NCBI GenBank assembly: GCA_009841005.1
Contig: VXMR01000048.1
Location: forward strand, 1 to 64,000
Direction of reading: 5' to 3'
Length of the DNA stretch: 64,000 nt
DNA from: Gemmatimonadales bacterium
Lineage (GTDB): Bacteria; Gemmatimonadota; Gemmatimonadetes; Palauibacterales; Palauibacteraceae
The first letter of the stretch is position 1; each line of letters starts with the position of its first letter. The notes under the pieces are model-generated. The model saw only the letters and a list, made by a program, of their open reading frames with translations, ran no database searches and was not told where the DNA came from. Below, one piece after another: positions 27,234-34,219 of this stretch. The position numbers and the translations under genes are program-made.

Positions 27234-28649
27234 ATGCCCCGGAACGAGACGATCACCGGACTCGGACTCGACGAGTACAAGTACGGATTTGTCACGGAGG
27301 ACAAGCCCGTCTTCAAGGCCGTCCCCGGCCTCTCCAGCGACATCGTCCGACAGATCTCGCACCACAAGGAGGAGCCGGACTGGATGCTCGAGTTCCGACT
27401 CAAGGCGCTCGAGGTCTACTACTCCAAGCCGATGCCGAAGTGGGGGGGCGATCTCTCGAAGCTCGAGGACACGCTCGACGAGATCTACTTCTACCTGAAG
27501 CCGCAGGACCAGATGGAGCGGTCCTGGGACGATGTCCCGCAGGAGATCAAGGACACGTTCGAGAAGCTCGGGATCCCGGAGGCGGAGCGTAAGGCGCTCG
27601 CCGGGGTCGGGGCCCAGTACGAGTCCGAGATGGTCTACCACTCCCTGAAGGAACAGTGGGAGGAGCAGGGCGTGATCTTCGAGTCGATCGAGGATGGACT
27701 CGCGAAGCACCCGGAGCTGTTCCGGCAGTATTTCTCGACCGTCGTTCCAACGCACGACAACAAGTTCGCGGCACTCAACTCGGCCGTGTGGTCGGGCGGG
27801 TCGTTCGTCTACATCCCGAAGGGGGTGAAGGTGGAGATCCCGCTCCAGGCCTACTTCCGGGTCAACGCGGAGCGCATGGGCCAGTTCGAGCGCACCCTGA
27901 TCATCTGCGAAGAGGGGGCCGAAGCCCACTACATCGAGGGCTGTACGGCGCCGGTCTACTCGACGGACTCCTTCCACTCCGGCGTCATCGAGATCGTGGT
28001 CAAGAAGGGCGCGCGCTTCCGGTACACCACGATCCAGAACTGGTCGAACAACATGTACAACCTCGTCACGCAGCGAGCGCTCGTGCACGAGGAGGCGAAG
28101 ATGGAGTGGCTCGACGGGAACCTGGGCTCGAAACTCACGATGAAATATCCGTCGTGCTATCTGGTCGGAGAGCGGGCGCACGGCGAGATCCTCTCCATCG
28201 CGTACGCCGGGGACGGTCAGCACCAGGACACGGGGGGCAAGGTGATCCACGCCGCCCCCAACACGACGTCCCAGATCACGTCGAAGTCGATCTCGAAGGG
28301 GCTCGGGCGCTCCTCGTACCGCGGACTGTGCAAGGTGTACGACGGCGCCGAGGGCGCGAAGTCCAACGTCGAGTGCGACGCCCTGCTGCTCGACGAGACG
28401 TCGCGGACGGACACCTACCCCTACATCGAGATCGATGAGAACACGGCGTCCATCGGGCACGAGGCCACGGTCTCGAAGGTCGGCGACGAGCAGCTCTTCT
28501 ATCTGATGAGTCGCGGGCTCGACGAGGCGGAGGCGATGGCGATGATCGTGCGCGGCTTCATCGAGCCGGTGGCCAAGGAGTTGCCGCTCGAGTACGCGAT
28601 CGAGCTGAACCGGCTGATCGAGCTGGAGATGGAGGGATCGGTCGGATGA
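27234..28649 (+). CDS. sufB: Fe-S cluster scaffold protein SufB
   Basis: This 471-residue protein is the core scaffold of the SufBC2D complex, on which sulfur and iron are assembled before transfer to apo-proteins. The length and sequence are typical, with '[20 protein letters not shown]' near residue 190, the long right-handed beta-helix, and '[18 protein letters not shown]' near 385. The latter contains the conserved region near the SufD contact. The ATG is preceded by GGGAGG, and the gene overlaps sufD by four bases (ATGA). Confidence 0.97.
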
Positions 28650-29977
28650 GCACGATGACAGCCGGGCCGGCGGAGTCTACGCTGGCCGCGGCGGATTTCG
28701 ACACGCTTGCCGGCGCGCTGACGGAGCCGGAAGCGCTCGCGGGGGCACGGGCCGCCGCATGGGAGCGGTTCACCGCCCTTCCCTGGCCGACGAAGAAGTC
28801 GGAGGAATGGCGGTACACGGACCTCGCGAAGGTCGGCTTCGAGGCGCTCACGCCGGTGGTCCCGGCACCCGCGACGGCGGAAGCGCTGTCGGCGGACGTG
28901 CGGGAGGTGCTCGGACGCTCCGGGGAGCGGGCGGGCGTCGTCGTGCTGCGGGAGGGGCGGGTCGCGCACCTCGAACTCGAACCCGAGGTGGCGCGGAGCG
29001 GCGTGGTCCTGTCGTCGATCCGCGACGCGGCGGATCGGCATCCGGAGGTGCTGAGGCGGGCGCTGCTAGAGGCGCAGCCGGGCCCCGCGGAGGAGAAGCT
29101 CTGGGCGCTGCACCTCGCTCTCCTGGGCGGAGGCTATTTCCTCTACGTTCCGCGCGGCGTGGAGATGCCGGCGCCGATCCACGCGTTCCACATCGTCGAG
29201 CGGGCGGGGACGCTCTCCTCCGCACATTCGTTCGTGTACGCGGAGTCCGGTGCCCGGGCCGCGGTCATCGACGAGTTCCTCTCCGGCGACCTCGATGCGG
29301 AGACGGTCTCGCTTCACGGGGCGACGATCACCGGCGAGGGGGGCGCGGGGATCGAGTACGTCGCGCTCCAGCGCTTCGGCCGGGGCGTGAAGCGGTTCTC
29401 GACGCAGCACGTGACCGCGGGCCGCGACTCGCGCGTCGTGACCTTCAACGTCGCGCTCGGGGGCGACCTTTCGCGGGCGGACGTCACAAGCCGTCTCGAC
29501 GGGCCCGGGAGCGACAGCGAGATGCTCGCACTCTGGTTCGGCGACTCCGACCAGCACTTCGACCACCACACGCTGCAGCATCACGCGGCGCCGCACGCGC
29601 ACAGCGATCTGCTGTTCAAGGGGGCGCTGACGGATGCCGGGTCGAGCGTCTTCCGCGGGTTGATCCGGGTCGACAAGGGAGCCCAGCTCACGGACGCCTA
29701 TCAGACGAACCGGAATCTGCTTCTGAGCGAGAGCTCTCATGCCTCCGCGCTTCCCAACCTGGAGATCGAGGCCGACGATGTGCGCTGCTCGCACGGGGCG
29801 ACGATCGGACAGGTCGAGGACGGGCAGCTCTTCTATCTGATGAGCCGCGGTCTCACGCGGCGCCAAGCGGAGCGCCTGCTCGTGTTCGGCTTCTTCGATG
29901 AGGTGCTCGGGCGCCTTCCGATGGAGGGGGTCCGCGCGCGCGTACGCGAAGCGATCGAGGAGAAGATCGGGCTATGA
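28646..29977 (+). CDS. sufD: Fe-S cluster assembly protein SufD
   Basis: This 443-residue protein is the SufB paralogue that completes the SufBC2D complex and is needed for iron acquisition. It has the same beta-helix fold, with '[20 protein letters not shown]' near 160, '[19 protein letters not shown]' near 295 and the conserved '[20 protein letters not shown]' near 370, including the histidine associated with cluster assembly. It overlaps both neighbours by four bases, indicating translational coupling. Confidence 0.96.
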
Positions 29978-30285
29978 GCCGATTCGTCACGGTGGCCAGG
30001 GTCGACGACGTGCCGGAGAACGGAACGTGCGGGGTGATGGCCGAGGACTTGGCGATCGCCCTCATCCGCAGCGGGGGTGAGGTCTACGCGCTCGAGGACT
30101 GCTGCTCCCACGAAGAGTTCCCGCTCTCGGACGGCGAGGTCGAGGCGGGCGAGATCACCTGTCTTCTCCACGGGGCGCGCTTCGATCTGGCGACCGGCGC
30201 GCCGAGGGCGCTCCCGGCGGTCATGCCGGTTCGACGCTTCGACGTGCGGATCGACGGGGACGACATTCAGGTCGACCTCGGCTGA
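29974..30285 (+). CDS. Rieske-type [2Fe-2S] ferredoxin in the suf operon
   Basis: This 103-residue soluble Rieske ferredoxin has the first ligand pair C-S-H in 'EDCCSHEEFPLS' and the second C-x2-H in 'ITCLLHGARFD'. It resembles the non-haem Rieske proteins of dioxygenase systems and those found between sufD and sufS in several phyla. There it may supply electrons during assembly or carry a cluster (inference). It overlaps sufD by four bases and lies 28 bases before sufS. Confidence 0.88.
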   Translation: MSRFVTVARVDDVPENGTCGVMAEDLAIALIRSGGEVYALEDCCSHEEFPLSDGEVEAGEITCLLHGARFDLATGAPRALPAVMPVRRFDVRIDGDDIQVDLG

Positions 30286-30313
30286 GCCGGACCCAGCCGA
30301 GGACCGGGGCCCG

Positions 30314-31645
30314 ATGGCGGAGATGACGGATACGAAGCAGGCAACGGGCACCTTGGCGTCAGAGCGCCCCCCGGAGGCGGCCGGGCACGGCGATGCGGGT
30401 GACGTTTCGGAGGACGGCGGCTGGGATCTCGCGGCGATCCGGGCCCAGTTCCCCATTCTCTCGAGGGAAGTCCACGGCCACCCCCTGGCCTACCTCGACA
30501 ACGCGGCGAGCTCGCAGCAGCCGCTCCGCGTGCTGAACCGGGTCGAGCGCTATCTGCGCGAGGAACACGCCAATGTGCACCGTGGCGTGCATCAGCTCAG
30601 CGCCGAAGCGACGGAGGCCTACGAGGGCGCCCGCCGTTCGGTGGCGGCGCATGCGGGGACGAGAGATCCGGCGGAGATCGTCTTCACGCGCGGCACGACG
30701 GAGGCGGTGAACCTCGTCGCGTCGAGTTGGGGGGACGCGTCCATCGGCGCGGGCGATGAGATCGTGCTCACGAAGATGGAGCACCATTCGAACCTCGTGC
30801 CGTGGCAGCTGCTCGCGGGCCGCACGGGGTGCAAGCTCCGTTTCGTCGACGTCACGCCCGAGGGCACGCTCGATCTGGACGACTACGACCGGCTCCTCGG
30901 AAAGCGATCCCGGCTGGTCGCCTGTACGCACGTCTCCAACAGCCTCGGGACCGTCAATCCGGTCCGCGAGATCGTGGACCGCGCTCACGCCGCCGGCGCG
31001 CTGACGCTCATCGACGGAGCGCAGGCCGCGCCCCACATGCTCACCGATGTGGCGAAGCTCGGGTGCGACTTCTACGCGTTCAGCAGCCACAAGATGTGTG
31101 GCCCTACCGGCGTCGGAGCGTTGTGGGCCAGGAGAGAACTGTTGGAGGAGATGCCCCCGTATCAGGGCGGGGGCGAGATGATCTCCGACGTGAAACTCGA
31201 AAGATCTTCCTGGGCGAAGGTTCCCCACAAGTTCGAGGCCGGAACGCCCAACATCTCGGGCGTCGTGGGCTTCGGCGAAGCCGCCCGCTTCCTCGCGGAC
31301 CTCGGATCGGAGGCGATCGCGTCGCACGAAGACGCCCTGAAGCGCGCCGTTTTCGAGCGGCTCGACGAGATCGAAGGGCTTCACCTGTACGGCCCGCGCG
31401 AAGGGCGGACCGCGGTCTTCTCCTTCACCTACGGTGACATACATCCGCACGACCTCTCCACGATCCTCGACCAGCGGGGAATCGCGATCCGGGCGGGGCA
31501 CCATTGCAACCAGCCGCTGATGGACCACTACGGGATCAGCAGCACGGCCCGGGCGAGCTTCTACTTCTACAATTCGCCGCGGGAGATCGACGTGCTGTGC
31601 GAAGGGCTCGCCCTGGCAGCCGAAGTCTTCGGCGGCATCGCCTGA
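30314..31645 (+). CDS. sufS: Cysteine desulfurase SufS
   Basis: This 443-residue PLP enzyme removes sulfur from L-cysteine and supplies it to SufU and SufB. A relative in this family (CsdB) also acts as a selenocysteine lyase, which may matter given the Sec genes here. The PLP lysine is K260 in 'FSSHKMCGPTG' and the persulfide cysteine is C398 in 'RAGHHCNQPLMDHYG'. An N-terminal extension of about 38 residues precedes the usual start 'DLAAIRAQFPIL'. The ATG at 30314 is the first in frame after the Rieske gene. Confidence 0.95.
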   Translation: MAEMTDTKQATGTLASERPPEAAGHGDAGDVSEDGGWDLAAIRAQFPILSREVHGHPLAYLDNAASSQQPLRVLNRVERYLREEHANVHRGVHQLSAEATEAYEGARRSVAAHAGTRDPAEIVFTRGTTEAVNLVASSWGDASIGAGDEIVLTKMEHHSNLVPWQLLAGRTGCKLRFVDVTPEGTLDLDDYDRLLGKRSRLVACTHVSNSLGTVNPVREIVDRAHAAGALTLIDGAQAAPHMLTDVAKLGCDFYAFSSHKMCGPTGVGALWARRELLEEMPPYQGGGEMISDVKLERSSWAKVPHKFEAGTPNISGVVGFGEAARFLADLGSEAIASHEDALKRAVFERLDEIEGLHLYGPREGRTAVFSFTYGDIHPHDLSTILDQRGIAIRAGHHCNQPLMDHYGISSTARASFYFYNSPREIDVLCEGLALAAEVFGGIA

Positions 31646-31649
31646 ATCC

Positions 31650-32174
31650 ATGATCGAACCCCGTCCGACGACGCCGAGCTCCTCGGGACAATCTGCCACG
31701 CCCGGGCCGATCGACCGGGAAATCCCTTCGTCGCTCAACCAGCTGTACCAGGAAGTCATCCTCGATCACTACCGGAAACCCCGGAACAAGGGGCAACTGG
31801 ACGGAGCCACGCACGCGATCACGATGAACAACCCCCTTTGCGGCGACGTGATCGAACTCATGTTGCGCGTGGAAGGGGGGAGCATCGCCGAGGCGCGCTT
31901 TCTGGGCCGCGGGTGCTCGATCAGCCTGGCGTCGGCGTCGATGCTCACGGGACGCGTGCGGGGCAAATCGCTCGAGCAGGCGCTGGAACTCTCCCGGAAG
32001 TTCACGCACCTCCTGCACGGAGACGGAGCGCTGCTGTCGGACGACGACCTCGGCGATCTGCGCACGCTGGCGGGGGTCTCGAAGTTTCCGGTCCGCATCA
32101 AGTGCGCGCTGCTGGCGTGGAACTGTCTCGAGGAGCTGGGCGACGGGACGGACGCCGACGGCGGCTCCGGGTGA
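31650..32174 (+). CDS. sufU: Zinc-dependent sulfurtransferase SufU
   Basis: This 174-residue IscU-like protein takes sulfur from SufS and passes it to SufB. The ligands C64 and D66 ('NPLCGD'), C89 ('GRGCSIS') and C152 ('RIKCALLAW') are all present, and the spacing with an insertion of about 19 residues is typical of SufU rather than IscU. It has an extended low-complexity N-terminus. It starts four bases after sufS, as in Gram-positive suf operons. Confidence 0.93.
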   Translation: MIEPRPTTPSSSGQSATPGPIDREIPSSLNQLYQEVILDHYRKPRNKGQLDGATHAITMNNPLCGDVIELMLRVEGGSIAEARFLGRGCSISLASASMLTGRVRGKSLEQALELSRKFTHLLHGDGALLSDDDLGDLRTLAGVSKFPVRIKCALLAWNCLEELGDGTDADGGSG

Positions 32175-32208
32175 ACTCCGCGACTCCGGACGGAAGCCGC
32201 AGCTCGGC

Positions 32209-33162
32209 GTGAGCTCCGGCGGCCCCTCCGCTACCGTTGGCCGCGTGCTGCGGATCGCGGGTGGGGTCTATCACGTCGACGATTCCAGGACGGTAGTCCG
32301 GGCCTCGCTGCGGGGGCGCCTGAAGCGGACGGACTCGCGCATCGTTTCGGTCGGCGACCTCGTAGAGATGGAACGCGTCGGCGACGAGATGCGGATCGTT
32401 CGGCTTCGCGCGCGAAGCGGCGCGCTCTCCCGGCACGGTGTCTCCAAGCGGCGCGAGCAGGTGATCGTGGCGAACGTGGACCAGGTCGCCGTCGTCGTCT
32501 CGGTGACGGCGCCCGATCCCGACTTCCTCATGGTGGACCGACTGCTCGCGCTCGCGGCGCTGAGCGGCATCGATGCCTTCCTCGTCGTGAACAAGACGGA
32601 CCTCGCGGAGCCTGTGCCAAACGCTGCGAGTTCCGGCGCGGCGGCCGGGAAGCCGGCACCCGGGGACGGCCTCGAACAGTACGCGGCGCTCGGCGTGGAG
32701 ACGCTGCGGACGAGCGTCGAGTCGAGGGCGGGACTGGGGGCGCTTTCGGAATGCCTCGCGGGGCGGATCACGGTGCTCAGCGGGCAGTCGGGCGTGGGAA
32801 AGTCGAGCCTGCTGAACGCGATCGTGCCGGAACTCGACCTGCGCGTGGGCGAGATCAGCGAGCGGCGGGGGCGGGGGCGGCATACGACCGTGGCGTCGGC
32901 GCTCTATCGATATCCGGGGGGCGGCTACGTGGCGGACACACCCGGCCTGCAGTACCTGGCGCTGTGGGAGCTGGATCCGGCGGAACTTTCGGGGGGCTTC
33001 GTCGAGATCGCCGCGATGAGCGGCGCCTGCCGGTTCGCGGACTGCCGGCATCGGGTGGAGCCGGACTGCGCGGTTCGCGCGGCCGTGGAGGATGGGAGGA
33101 TCGGCCGGAGGCGGCTGGAGAGCTACCTGCGCCTCCTCGACGAGGCAGAGAAGGGTCGTTGA
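32209..33162 (+). CDS. rsgA: Ribosome small-subunit-dependent GTPase RsgA
   Basis: This 317-residue circularly permuted GTPase assists late maturation of the 30S ribosomal subunit. It has an N-terminal OB-fold, then G4 (NKTD, about residue 125), G1 (GQSGVGKSS, about 190), G3 (DTPG) and a C-terminal zinc site (C-x4-C-x-H-x5-C in 'CRFADCRHRVEPDC'). It begins with GTG 34 bases after sufU and overlaps the following NUDIX gene by four bases (TTGA). Confidence 0.93.
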   Translation: MSSGGPSATVGRVLRIAGGVYHVDDSRTVVRASLRGRLKRTDSRIVSVGDLVEMERVGDEMRIVRLRARSGALSRHGVSKRREQVIVANVDQVAVVVSVTAPDPDFLMVDRLLALAALSGIDAFLVVNKTDLAEPVPNAASSGAAAGKPAPGDGLEQYAALGVETLRTSVESRAGLGALSECLAGRITVLSGQSGVGKSSLLNAIVPELDLRVGEISERRGRGRHTTVASALYRYPGGGYVADTPGLQYLALWELDPAELSGGFVEIAAMSGACRFADCRHRVEPDCAVRAAVEDGRIGRRRLESYLRLLDEAEKGR

Positions 33163-33755
33163 GCGAGGGTTGGAGCGCGGCGCGGGTCGCTCATCGGCTG
33201 ATCACGGCGGGTCACACCGAGGTCGACCCCGGGGCGGCGGAGCGCCACGCGGCCGTGACCCTCGTGGTCCGTCCTCGGAGTCACGGCCTGGAGGTGCTCT
33301 TCGTCCGGCGGGCGGAGCTCCCCGGCGACCCTTGGTCCGGCCACATGGCGCTTCCCGGCGGGCACCGGGACGCGGCGGACGCCGATCTCCTGGAGACGGC
33401 GCGCCGCGAGTTGCGCGAGGAAGTGGGGCTCGATCTTCCGCGCAACGGCTTCCTCGGACGGCTCGACGACCTGCACCCGGTGACGCGCCGGATCCCGTCG
33501 ATCCTCATCTCCCCCTTCGTCGCGTGGCACGGGGAGGACGCACGGGTCTCGACGAACGCCGAAGTGCAGTATCATGTGTGGGCTCCGCTCCGCGCGCTGC
33601 GCGATCCGGCACTGCGCTCGGAAGTCCGCTATCCCGATGGGGGCCACGAACATGTGTGGCCCTCCATCCTGTACGAGGGCGACGCCATTTGGGGGCTCAC
33701 GCACCGCGTCGTCATGAACTTCCTCGACATCATCACGGAGAGAACCGGCCAATGA
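33159..33755 (+). CDS. NUDIX hydrolase, CoA-pyrophosphatase-like
   Basis: This 198-residue NUDIX protein has the box 'GGHRDAADADLLETARRELREEVGL' split over about residues 66-92, with the catalytic 'RELREEVG' helix. The preceding 'VLFVRRAELPGDPWSGHMA' matches the UPF0035/CoAse subfamily, which cleaves CoA or related nucleotides. The TTG start overlaps the rsgA stop. Its own TGA overlaps the ATG of the OsmC-like gene (ATGA), so the three genes are translationally coupled. Confidence 0.85.
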   Translation: MSEGWSAARVAHRLITAGHTEVDPGAAERHAAVTLVVRPRSHGLEVLFVRRAELPGDPWSGHMALPGGHRDAADADLLETARRELREEVGLDLPRNGFLGRLDDLHPVTRRIPSILISPFVAWHGEDARVSTNAEVQYHVWAPLRALRDPALRSEVRYPDGGHEHVWPSILYEGDAIWGLTHRVVMNFLDIITERTGQ

Positions 33756-34219
33756 GTGAAGTCGTCTACCGCTCGCACGTGAAGATCGTGCGACAGAAGG
33801 GTCCATACCGCACGGCAGAGATCCCGGCCACGGATGCGCCAGTCGATTTCGGCGTCCACTCCGCGGTCGCCGAGTACTACGGCGTCCGCGACAACCGCGA
33901 CATCGCCACGACACTCGACTATGTCATCGCCGCGACCGGCGGCTGACTGGCCGGAACCTTCGGGGGCGCGCTGGAAGCGCGCGGCGTCAAGGCGGATGAG
34001 GGGCGGTTGGTGGCGAACGTTGAGGGCGAGGTCGAGACGGACGACGGCGTGCTCGTCATCCGGCGGATCCGGACCCGGTATCGGCTCCAGGCGGATGAGG
34101 CGCACGCCGACGCGATCCGGCGCGCGTTCGAGGCCCATCCGCCGAAGTGTCCGGTCTACCGAACGCTCTCCGGCTGCATCGACATCACGACGGAACTCGA
34201 CGTCGTCCCGGTCGACTGA
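33752..34219 (+). CDS. OsmC-like protein with in-frame TGA at the catalytic position: predicted selenoprotein
   Basis: This is a 155-residue OsmC/Ohr-family peroxide reductase-like protein if the TGA at 33944-33946 is read as selenocysteine (residue 65). The frame is unbroken on both sides. The N-terminal part ends '...TTLDYVIAATGG', and reading resumes with 'LAGTFGGALEARG', exactly where family members have the first redox cysteine. The second, Cys133 in 'PPKCPVYRTL', is intact. A hairpin fitting the bacterial SECIS rules follows (33966-33982). The ATG overlaps the NUDIX stop. Sec-containing OsmC-like proteins are a known but rare selenoprotein family. A nonsense pseudogene is the main alternative, but one TGA at the one catalytic position is hard to explain that way. 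Confidence 0.85.
33966..33982 (+). promoter_or_regulatory. Candidate SECIS hairpin of the OsmC-like selenoprotein
   Basis: GCGCGCT (33966-33972) pairs perfectly with AGCGCGC (33976-33982) around a three-base GGA loop. The loop's first G is 27 bases after the last base of TGA, within the usual 16-37 base range. The loop opens with G, as SelB-recognised elements do. It lies inside the coding region, as in all bacterial SECIS elements. Confidence 0.7.

Follow-up and report, generated by a model that had tools for sequence, protein, structure and literature searches.

The window analysed here, a stretch of 64,000 nucleotides, carries an osmC-like gene with a single in-frame TGA inside its coding region, preceded by a NUDIX hydrolase gene whose stop overlaps the osmC-like start as ATGA (33752-33755). 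The features of the locus are collected in Table 1.

Table 1. Features of the osmC-like locus, numbered from the first nucleotide of the window
Feature	Position	Strand	Description	Evidence
NUDIX hydrolase gene	33171..33755	+	start provisional	PF00293, 57.9 bits
osmC-like gene, predicted selenoprotein	33752..34219	+	155 residues, Sec predicted at codon 65	Pfam match; TGA kept in 80/80 relatives
TGA read as putative selenocysteine U65	33944..33946	+	column of the peroxidatic Cys	aligns with Cys of 1ukk
bSECIS-like hairpin	33966..33982	+	7-bp stem 33966-33972/33976-33982, loop GGA	UGA-to-loop distance 26 nt
C133 codon, putative resolving cysteine	34148..34150	+	motif KCP	invariant among aligned members

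Reading of the sequence bore out the frame described in the earlier note: it opens with ATG, ends with a TGA at 34217-34219 and contains one other in-frame TGA, located immediately 5' of LAGTFGGALEARG. The whole frame matched the Pfam OsmC model PF02566 with 47.1 bits (gathering cut-off 27.5). The family-typical sequence claimed for the region beyond the TGA was recovered as well, the 3' part giving 33.3 bits; since this part exceeds the Pfam cut-off by itself, the open frame around the TGA is not due to chance. The mechanical list of open reading frames gave only a 70-residue piece starting with TTG (34007-34219) and a second piece that lies upstream and stops at the TGA, that is, the division into two fragments anticipated for a standard gene caller.

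Upstream of the gene, the region 27234-33755 contains Suf-like genes (SufB, SufD and SufS assigned by reading, NifU_N and RsgA by Pfam) and the NUDIX gene. Relatives of SufS, SufU, RsgA and NUDIX were found in 7 of 80 related loci, six of them Palauibacter-like (L077-L082) and the seventh L105 (tblastn, flanks of at most 6 kb), and the same search across the 80 loci found no conserved neighbourhood that could serve as a clue to function.

Relatives of the gene and conservation of the TGA

Contigs of GTDB r220 were scanned with peptide patterns that omit the Sec column and with a query carrying Cys at that column. At least 410 relatives were obtained, the nearest named ones being Candidatus Palauibacter and other Gemmatimonadota MAGs. 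To the point raised earlier, whether U, C or TGA stands at this column in relatives, the best 80 of the at least 410 gave a uniform answer: the codon, read whatever it might be, was TGA in 80 of 80. By record title, these 80 were distributed over Gemmatimonadota (40), Chloroflexota (21), Acidobacteriota (13), Poribacteria (2), Actinomycetota (1) and Deltaproteobacteria (1), with two lacking a phylum. A Cys version of the subfamily was not found in the genomes searched, the column having been read in the best 80 of the at least 410 relatives.

The genome samples gave a similar picture, their row counts referring to one TGA anywhere in the match. Among 60 genomes, the own assembly included, 37 had matches, amounting to 60 rows, and exactly one TGA was present in 57 of them; the three TGA-less rows were a 3' piece at the edge of a contig, short of the column, an ordinary Cys-OsmC and a row with no OsmC-like ORF. 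In 150 genomes of the own phylum, called Gemmatimonadota after the nearest named relatives, the subfamily occurred in 48; a single TGA was present in 78 of its 80 rows, and the other two rows were N-terminal pieces ending before the Sec column. In 301 Chloroflexota genomes it occurred in 29, with one TGA in 30 of 34 rows; the remaining four were fragments, namely the two halves of one decayed gene, the latter half of a gene with a frameshift and an N-terminal piece of 55 residues that ends short of the Sec column. At such frequencies the subfamily is not rare, so that the description of Sec-containing OsmC-like proteins as known but rare holds in its first part, such proteins being in print, and not in its second. 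The decayed Chloroflexota copy, L235 (G327:C29), has both halves on one contig, about 2.2 kb apart.

Counted over all loci extracted, TGA was present in 128 of 128, of which only 80 were read irrespective of the codon, 28 having been chosen by a filter that requires TGA and 20 taken from rows already known to hold one TGA; the window gene and its paralogue are part of this set, to which some genomes contribute twice. For the set of 28, 31 loci were tried, and the three missed by the motif filter each had one TGA in the row count. The claim of conservation rests on the counts from the 60 genomes, the best 80 loci, the 150 genomes and the 301 genomes, and not on the 128 loci.

The pN/pS ratio, calculated for 12 sequences of the genus (66 pairs), was 0.119 before the TGA and 0.092 after it, and for four more distant sequences, at which pS is near saturation, 0.358 and 0.422, respectively. 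Both halves of the gene are under similar purifying selection, and no decay of the 3' half, named earlier as a sign against the selenoprotein reading, was observed. The phylum labels required 8 changes on a 124-row tree, compared to 33.2 when shuffled, a result to be read with the few columns, the many open forks and the paralogues that limit statements on descent. Whether there is a Sec-only OsmC lineage that is widespread across several phyla, groups by phylum on the tree and never exchanged Sec for Cys, is in our estimation an evenly balanced question; if true, the reaction would need selenium chemistry beyond that of Cys.

The own assembly (G000; 3.16 Mb, 158 contigs, 96% complete) gave three OsmC matches, which are the window gene, a second gene with one TGA on contig C50 and a Cys protein on contig C135. 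The second gene (L002:1357-1827) has its in-frame TGA in the motif UMLGTLNG and its product is 33% identical to the window protein; its relatives in the 60- and 150-genome samples likewise have one TGA. A third TGA-bearing OsmC type was encountered in the own phylum (L228-L234), with the motif GAU[TM]SMT in six and GSUMSMT in one of the seven read. Genome G118 (L228) has this third type, yet no selB match at 1e-60.

The hairpin and the selenocysteine pathway

The stem GCGCGCU/AGCGCGC begins 22 bases past the first base of the UGA and closes on GGA. The rules for bSECIS elements in PMC13188914 comprise a loop of 3-9 nt, a stem of 4-16 bp, a G in the first two loop positions, a spacing of 16-37 nt and an MFE of -7.5 or lower; the window hairpin, with 7 bp, GGA, 26 nt and -11.2 kcal/mol, agrees with all of them. 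With only ungapped stems tested, the rules were satisfied in 85 of 108 sequences. The other 23, mostly from Chloroflexota together with one genus of the own family, had no ungapped hairpin within the rules at -7.5 kcal/mol, and a hairpin with a bulge or of another kind may take its place there. In the Chloroflexota loci L102, L104, L108, L110, L111, L117, L122 and L150 the Leu within the hairpin is encoded by CTT, and the ungapped stems all fall outside the rules; the SelB of these members may read another shape. A scan of the window returned 23 combinations of an in-frame TGA with a following hairpin that passes the bSECIS test used, the predicted selenoprotein gene among them, the other 22 being probably chance occurrences in a GC-rich genome.

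Taken alone, the window hairpin is not unusually stable, 11% of its synonymous versions equalling it and 3.3% having all 7 pairs. Comparison was made on the 128 loci (28 + 80 + 20), which yield 106 distinct sequences over 48 bases: all 7 bp were present in 82 of 106, against a mean of 4.8 and a maximum of 12 in 1000 runs of synonymous codon resampling. GCA is used at codon 11 in 13 of 13 sequences with Val as the eighth residue after Sec (otherwise in 0 of 93), and at codon 8 in 15 of 15 with Val as the eleventh, compared with 0 of 78 sequences that have Ala at both positions. Judged from these codon counts, the synonymous codons within the conserved hairpin co-vary to keep the predicted base pairs. 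A tree built without these columns counted two changes of residue 8 and four of residue 11; the supported independent pairs, two per residue, were both compensating, and the sign test (p 0.5) is uninformative because there are only two of them for each residue.

The selenocysteine machinery, whose absence would by the earlier note have told against its own prediction, is encoded in the assembly: SelB, SelA and SelD scored 371, 496 and 375 bits, all above the curated cut-offs, and selC is partial here and intact in the same species. The SelD of G000 (L024:1501-2427, contig C41) has its own in-frame TGA, in the context ...HGAGUACK..., and appears as a Sec-containing SelD. In G000 no tRNA-Sec was found above the cut-off, and 34 of the 40 genomes searched, including all 15 others of the genus, had one; ARAGORN reported tRNA-SeC(tca) in the four relatives' loci examined. 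The selB contig of G000 (13,445 bases) is 99.86% identical over its full length to the same-species genome G103 and breaks off within the 96-base tRNA-Sec gene, after 48 bases of it; G103 has that gene intact. The tRNA thus seems to be missing because the contig ends inside its gene, and this apparent absence was discarded as evidence against Sec. In L186:9167-13562, selB and tRNA-Sec are separated by a tmRNA gene, which precedes the tRNA-Sec by about 4 kb.

In the own-phylum sample a selB match (1e-60) was present in 47 of 48 carriers of the subfamily versus 66 of 102 non-carriers (Fisher p 1.5e-6, on the assumption that the two draws of 150 comprise identical genomes). The carrier without such a match is G161; seen from the other side, 36 of the 37 genomes without a selB match also lack the subfamily gene. 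For 22 carriers chosen from the best 80 loci, SelB was above the cut-off in 21, and that of the L124 carrier was below it with 228.5 bits.

In the usual bacterial route Ser-tRNA-Sec would be converted to its Sec form by SelA with selenophosphate supplied by SelD, and SelB would deliver the Sec-tRNA upon recognition of the hairpin just 3' of the UGA. A genuine stop at codon 65, whether reflecting a pseudogene, a sequencing error or two polypeptides with reinitiation, could appeal to the gene's own terminator, which is also TGA, and to the TTG start of the 3' piece 61 bases past the inner TGA; set against the retention of TGA in all 80 loci from several phyla, purifying selection spanning the TGA, the co-occurrence of selB and the modelled helix 54-76, which continues unbroken across residue 65 (modelled as Cys), it is highly improbable. 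Reassignment of TGA, or its suppression by a different residue such as Trp or Gly (code 4 or 25), has no supporting point; the two solved homologues in the alignment have Cys in this column and neither Trp nor Gly, and the genome encodes the Sec pathway. The probability of such a reading is practically negligible. Pseudogene, sequencing error and code reassignment were rejected on the 80/80 TGA, the selection, the Cys column and the Sec pathway. The reading of the OsmC-like gene as a predicted selenoprotein is supported by the sequence evidence, decoding of the inner UGA as Sec is near certain on the same basis, and there can be hardly any doubt that Sec would really be inserted at UGA65.

Fold and proposed chemistry

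The AlphaFold2 model, calculated with Cys in place of Sec, had a pLDDT of 92.9 and a pTM of 0.86. Its best fold match was the OsmC-family structure 2onf (Z 15.3, rmsd 2.0, 139 residues aligned), and 1ukk was matched with Z 13.1; across the matches with OsmC/Ohr structures the sequences are about 7-20% identical. Membership of the OsmC fold is confidently predicted by the model. In the profile alignment the Sec column coincides with a Cys of Thermus OsmC (1ukk) and C133 with the second Cys of 1ukk, which agrees with the former placing of the TGA at the first redox cysteine. The second cysteine, said to be kept, is invariant in 34 of 34 and 42 of 42 aligned members, the window protein counted in. 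The residues invariant in 18 aligned sequences include R20, D56, E75, R77 and H129. R20 and D56, invariant in the larger alignments as well, may be the counterparts of the catalytic Arg and Glu of Ohr, the acid here being Asp.

In Ohr, according to PMC5962072, Arg19 and Glu51 activate the peroxidatic Cys, which forms a disulfide with Cys125 that is reduced by a lipoylated protein. By analogy, the selenol would be located in the central helix, where OsmC/Ohr enzymes place their peroxidatic Cys, and an organic (lipid) hydroperoxide would be reduced by it with formation of a selenenic acid; this would be resolved by C133 to give a selenenylsulfide, and a dithiol reductant would recycle the enzyme. 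The protein is very probably a redox enzyme, and an organic peroxide is somewhat favoured as its substrate; peroxide reduction by this selenoprotein is inferred from family and fold.

An OsmC-fold selenoprotein might instead perform thiol-disulfide exchange or handle another electrophile or metal compound. For such a function one may cite the low scores with the peroxidase models: with TIGR03562 (OsmC family peroxiredoxin, cut-off 85.8) the window protein reached 20.7-20.8 bits and the paralogue 13.8, and with TIGR03561 (Ohr, cut-off 88.85) the window protein had no match and the paralogue 13.2 bits, the latter scoring 14.2 bits with the SACOL1771 model (cut-off 166). One may add that D56, which would correspond to Glu51 of Ohr, sits 9 residues before U65, and Glu51 10 before Cys61 (PMC5962072), and that a "hydroperoxide resistance protein" of Francisella novicida was reported (PMC4069020) to be without thiol-dependent peroxidase activity. 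The protein nevertheless keeps the two redox positions of the Ohr/OsmC peroxidases and their general fold, and the invariant R20 near the N-terminus recalls Arg19 of Ohr; a function other than that of a peroxidase is accordingly held to be rather unlikely. An OsmC-fold selenoprotein that acquires Sec by the usual bacterial route and reduces an organic hydroperoxide is predicted with considerable confidence.

Nearly all selenoproteins have Cys homologues, as stated in PMC13188914, and therefore the reason why Sec is retained is hard to test. A family that has shown only Sec across several phyla, and of which one genome carries two TGA-bearing paralogues, makes the capability of Sec relative to that of Cys testable. 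Two named strains occur among the carriers, Haloechinothrix halophila YIM 93223 (L118) and Candidatus Lucifugimonas marina JH1073 (L150), and are perhaps open to direct study. Since the ORF list splits at the TGA, and none of the NCBIfam models reached its own cut-off on the window protein, the gene has probably been cut or missed in annotated genomes.

Comparison with known OsmC-like proteins and selenoproteins

The term "OsmC" is absent from the deep-Sep paper and from the one Palauibacter paper examined, and the literature search found nothing joining selenoprotein and SAR202. The curated model NF041052 (OsmC_like_Se, OsmC-related (seleno)protein) has the OsmC fold in common with the window protein; its cut-off is 95, and the window protein scored 15.6 and the paralogue 22.4 bits. 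Of 34 aligned members 27 matched it weakly, with a best E of 7.5e-6 (for TIGR03562/TIGR03561 the best E among the other members of this alignment was 8.2e-10). No match over the NF041052 cut-off was found in the 150 own-phylum genomes, 46 of which had sub-threshold matches, some of these belonging to the third TGA-bearing OsmC type. Because the scores are far below the cut-off and Thr is at +4, the Sec-OsmC subfamily is, by sequence comparison, outside the curated model. What appears to be new are these low scores for both the window protein and the paralogue, and a subfamily for which no Cys version was found.

GrdA is unrelated to the OsmC-like selenoprotein both as a protein and in its reaction. 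It resembles the window subfamily in having Sec and no known Cys counterpart, being listed as a selenoprotein without known Cys homologues in PMC1088965.

An OsmC-like selenoprotein was described in 2005 from Sargasso Sea data, with the motif UxxT and with 3 Sec and 10 Cys sequences (PMC1088965), and OsmC-like selenoproteins were reported again in 2008 in the GOS survey (PMC2398784) and in reviews (PMC9312934, PMC13188914). The Sargasso/GOS protein and the window protein are alike in a Sec-UGA within an OsmC fold and a SECIS element downstream; they differ in that the former has UxxT and Cys homologues, whereas in the window Thr is at +4 (U-L-A-G-T) and a Cys form was not found. The window subfamily may be the same as the Sargasso/GOS family, from which it is told apart by the printed motif and Cys counts. 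With the Cys peroxidases of the Ohr/OsmC type (XfOhr, PMC5962072; 1ukk, 2onf) it has the fold and the peroxidatic and resolving positions in common, the difference being that these enzymes have Cys, and the window protein a predicted Sec, at the peroxidatic position.
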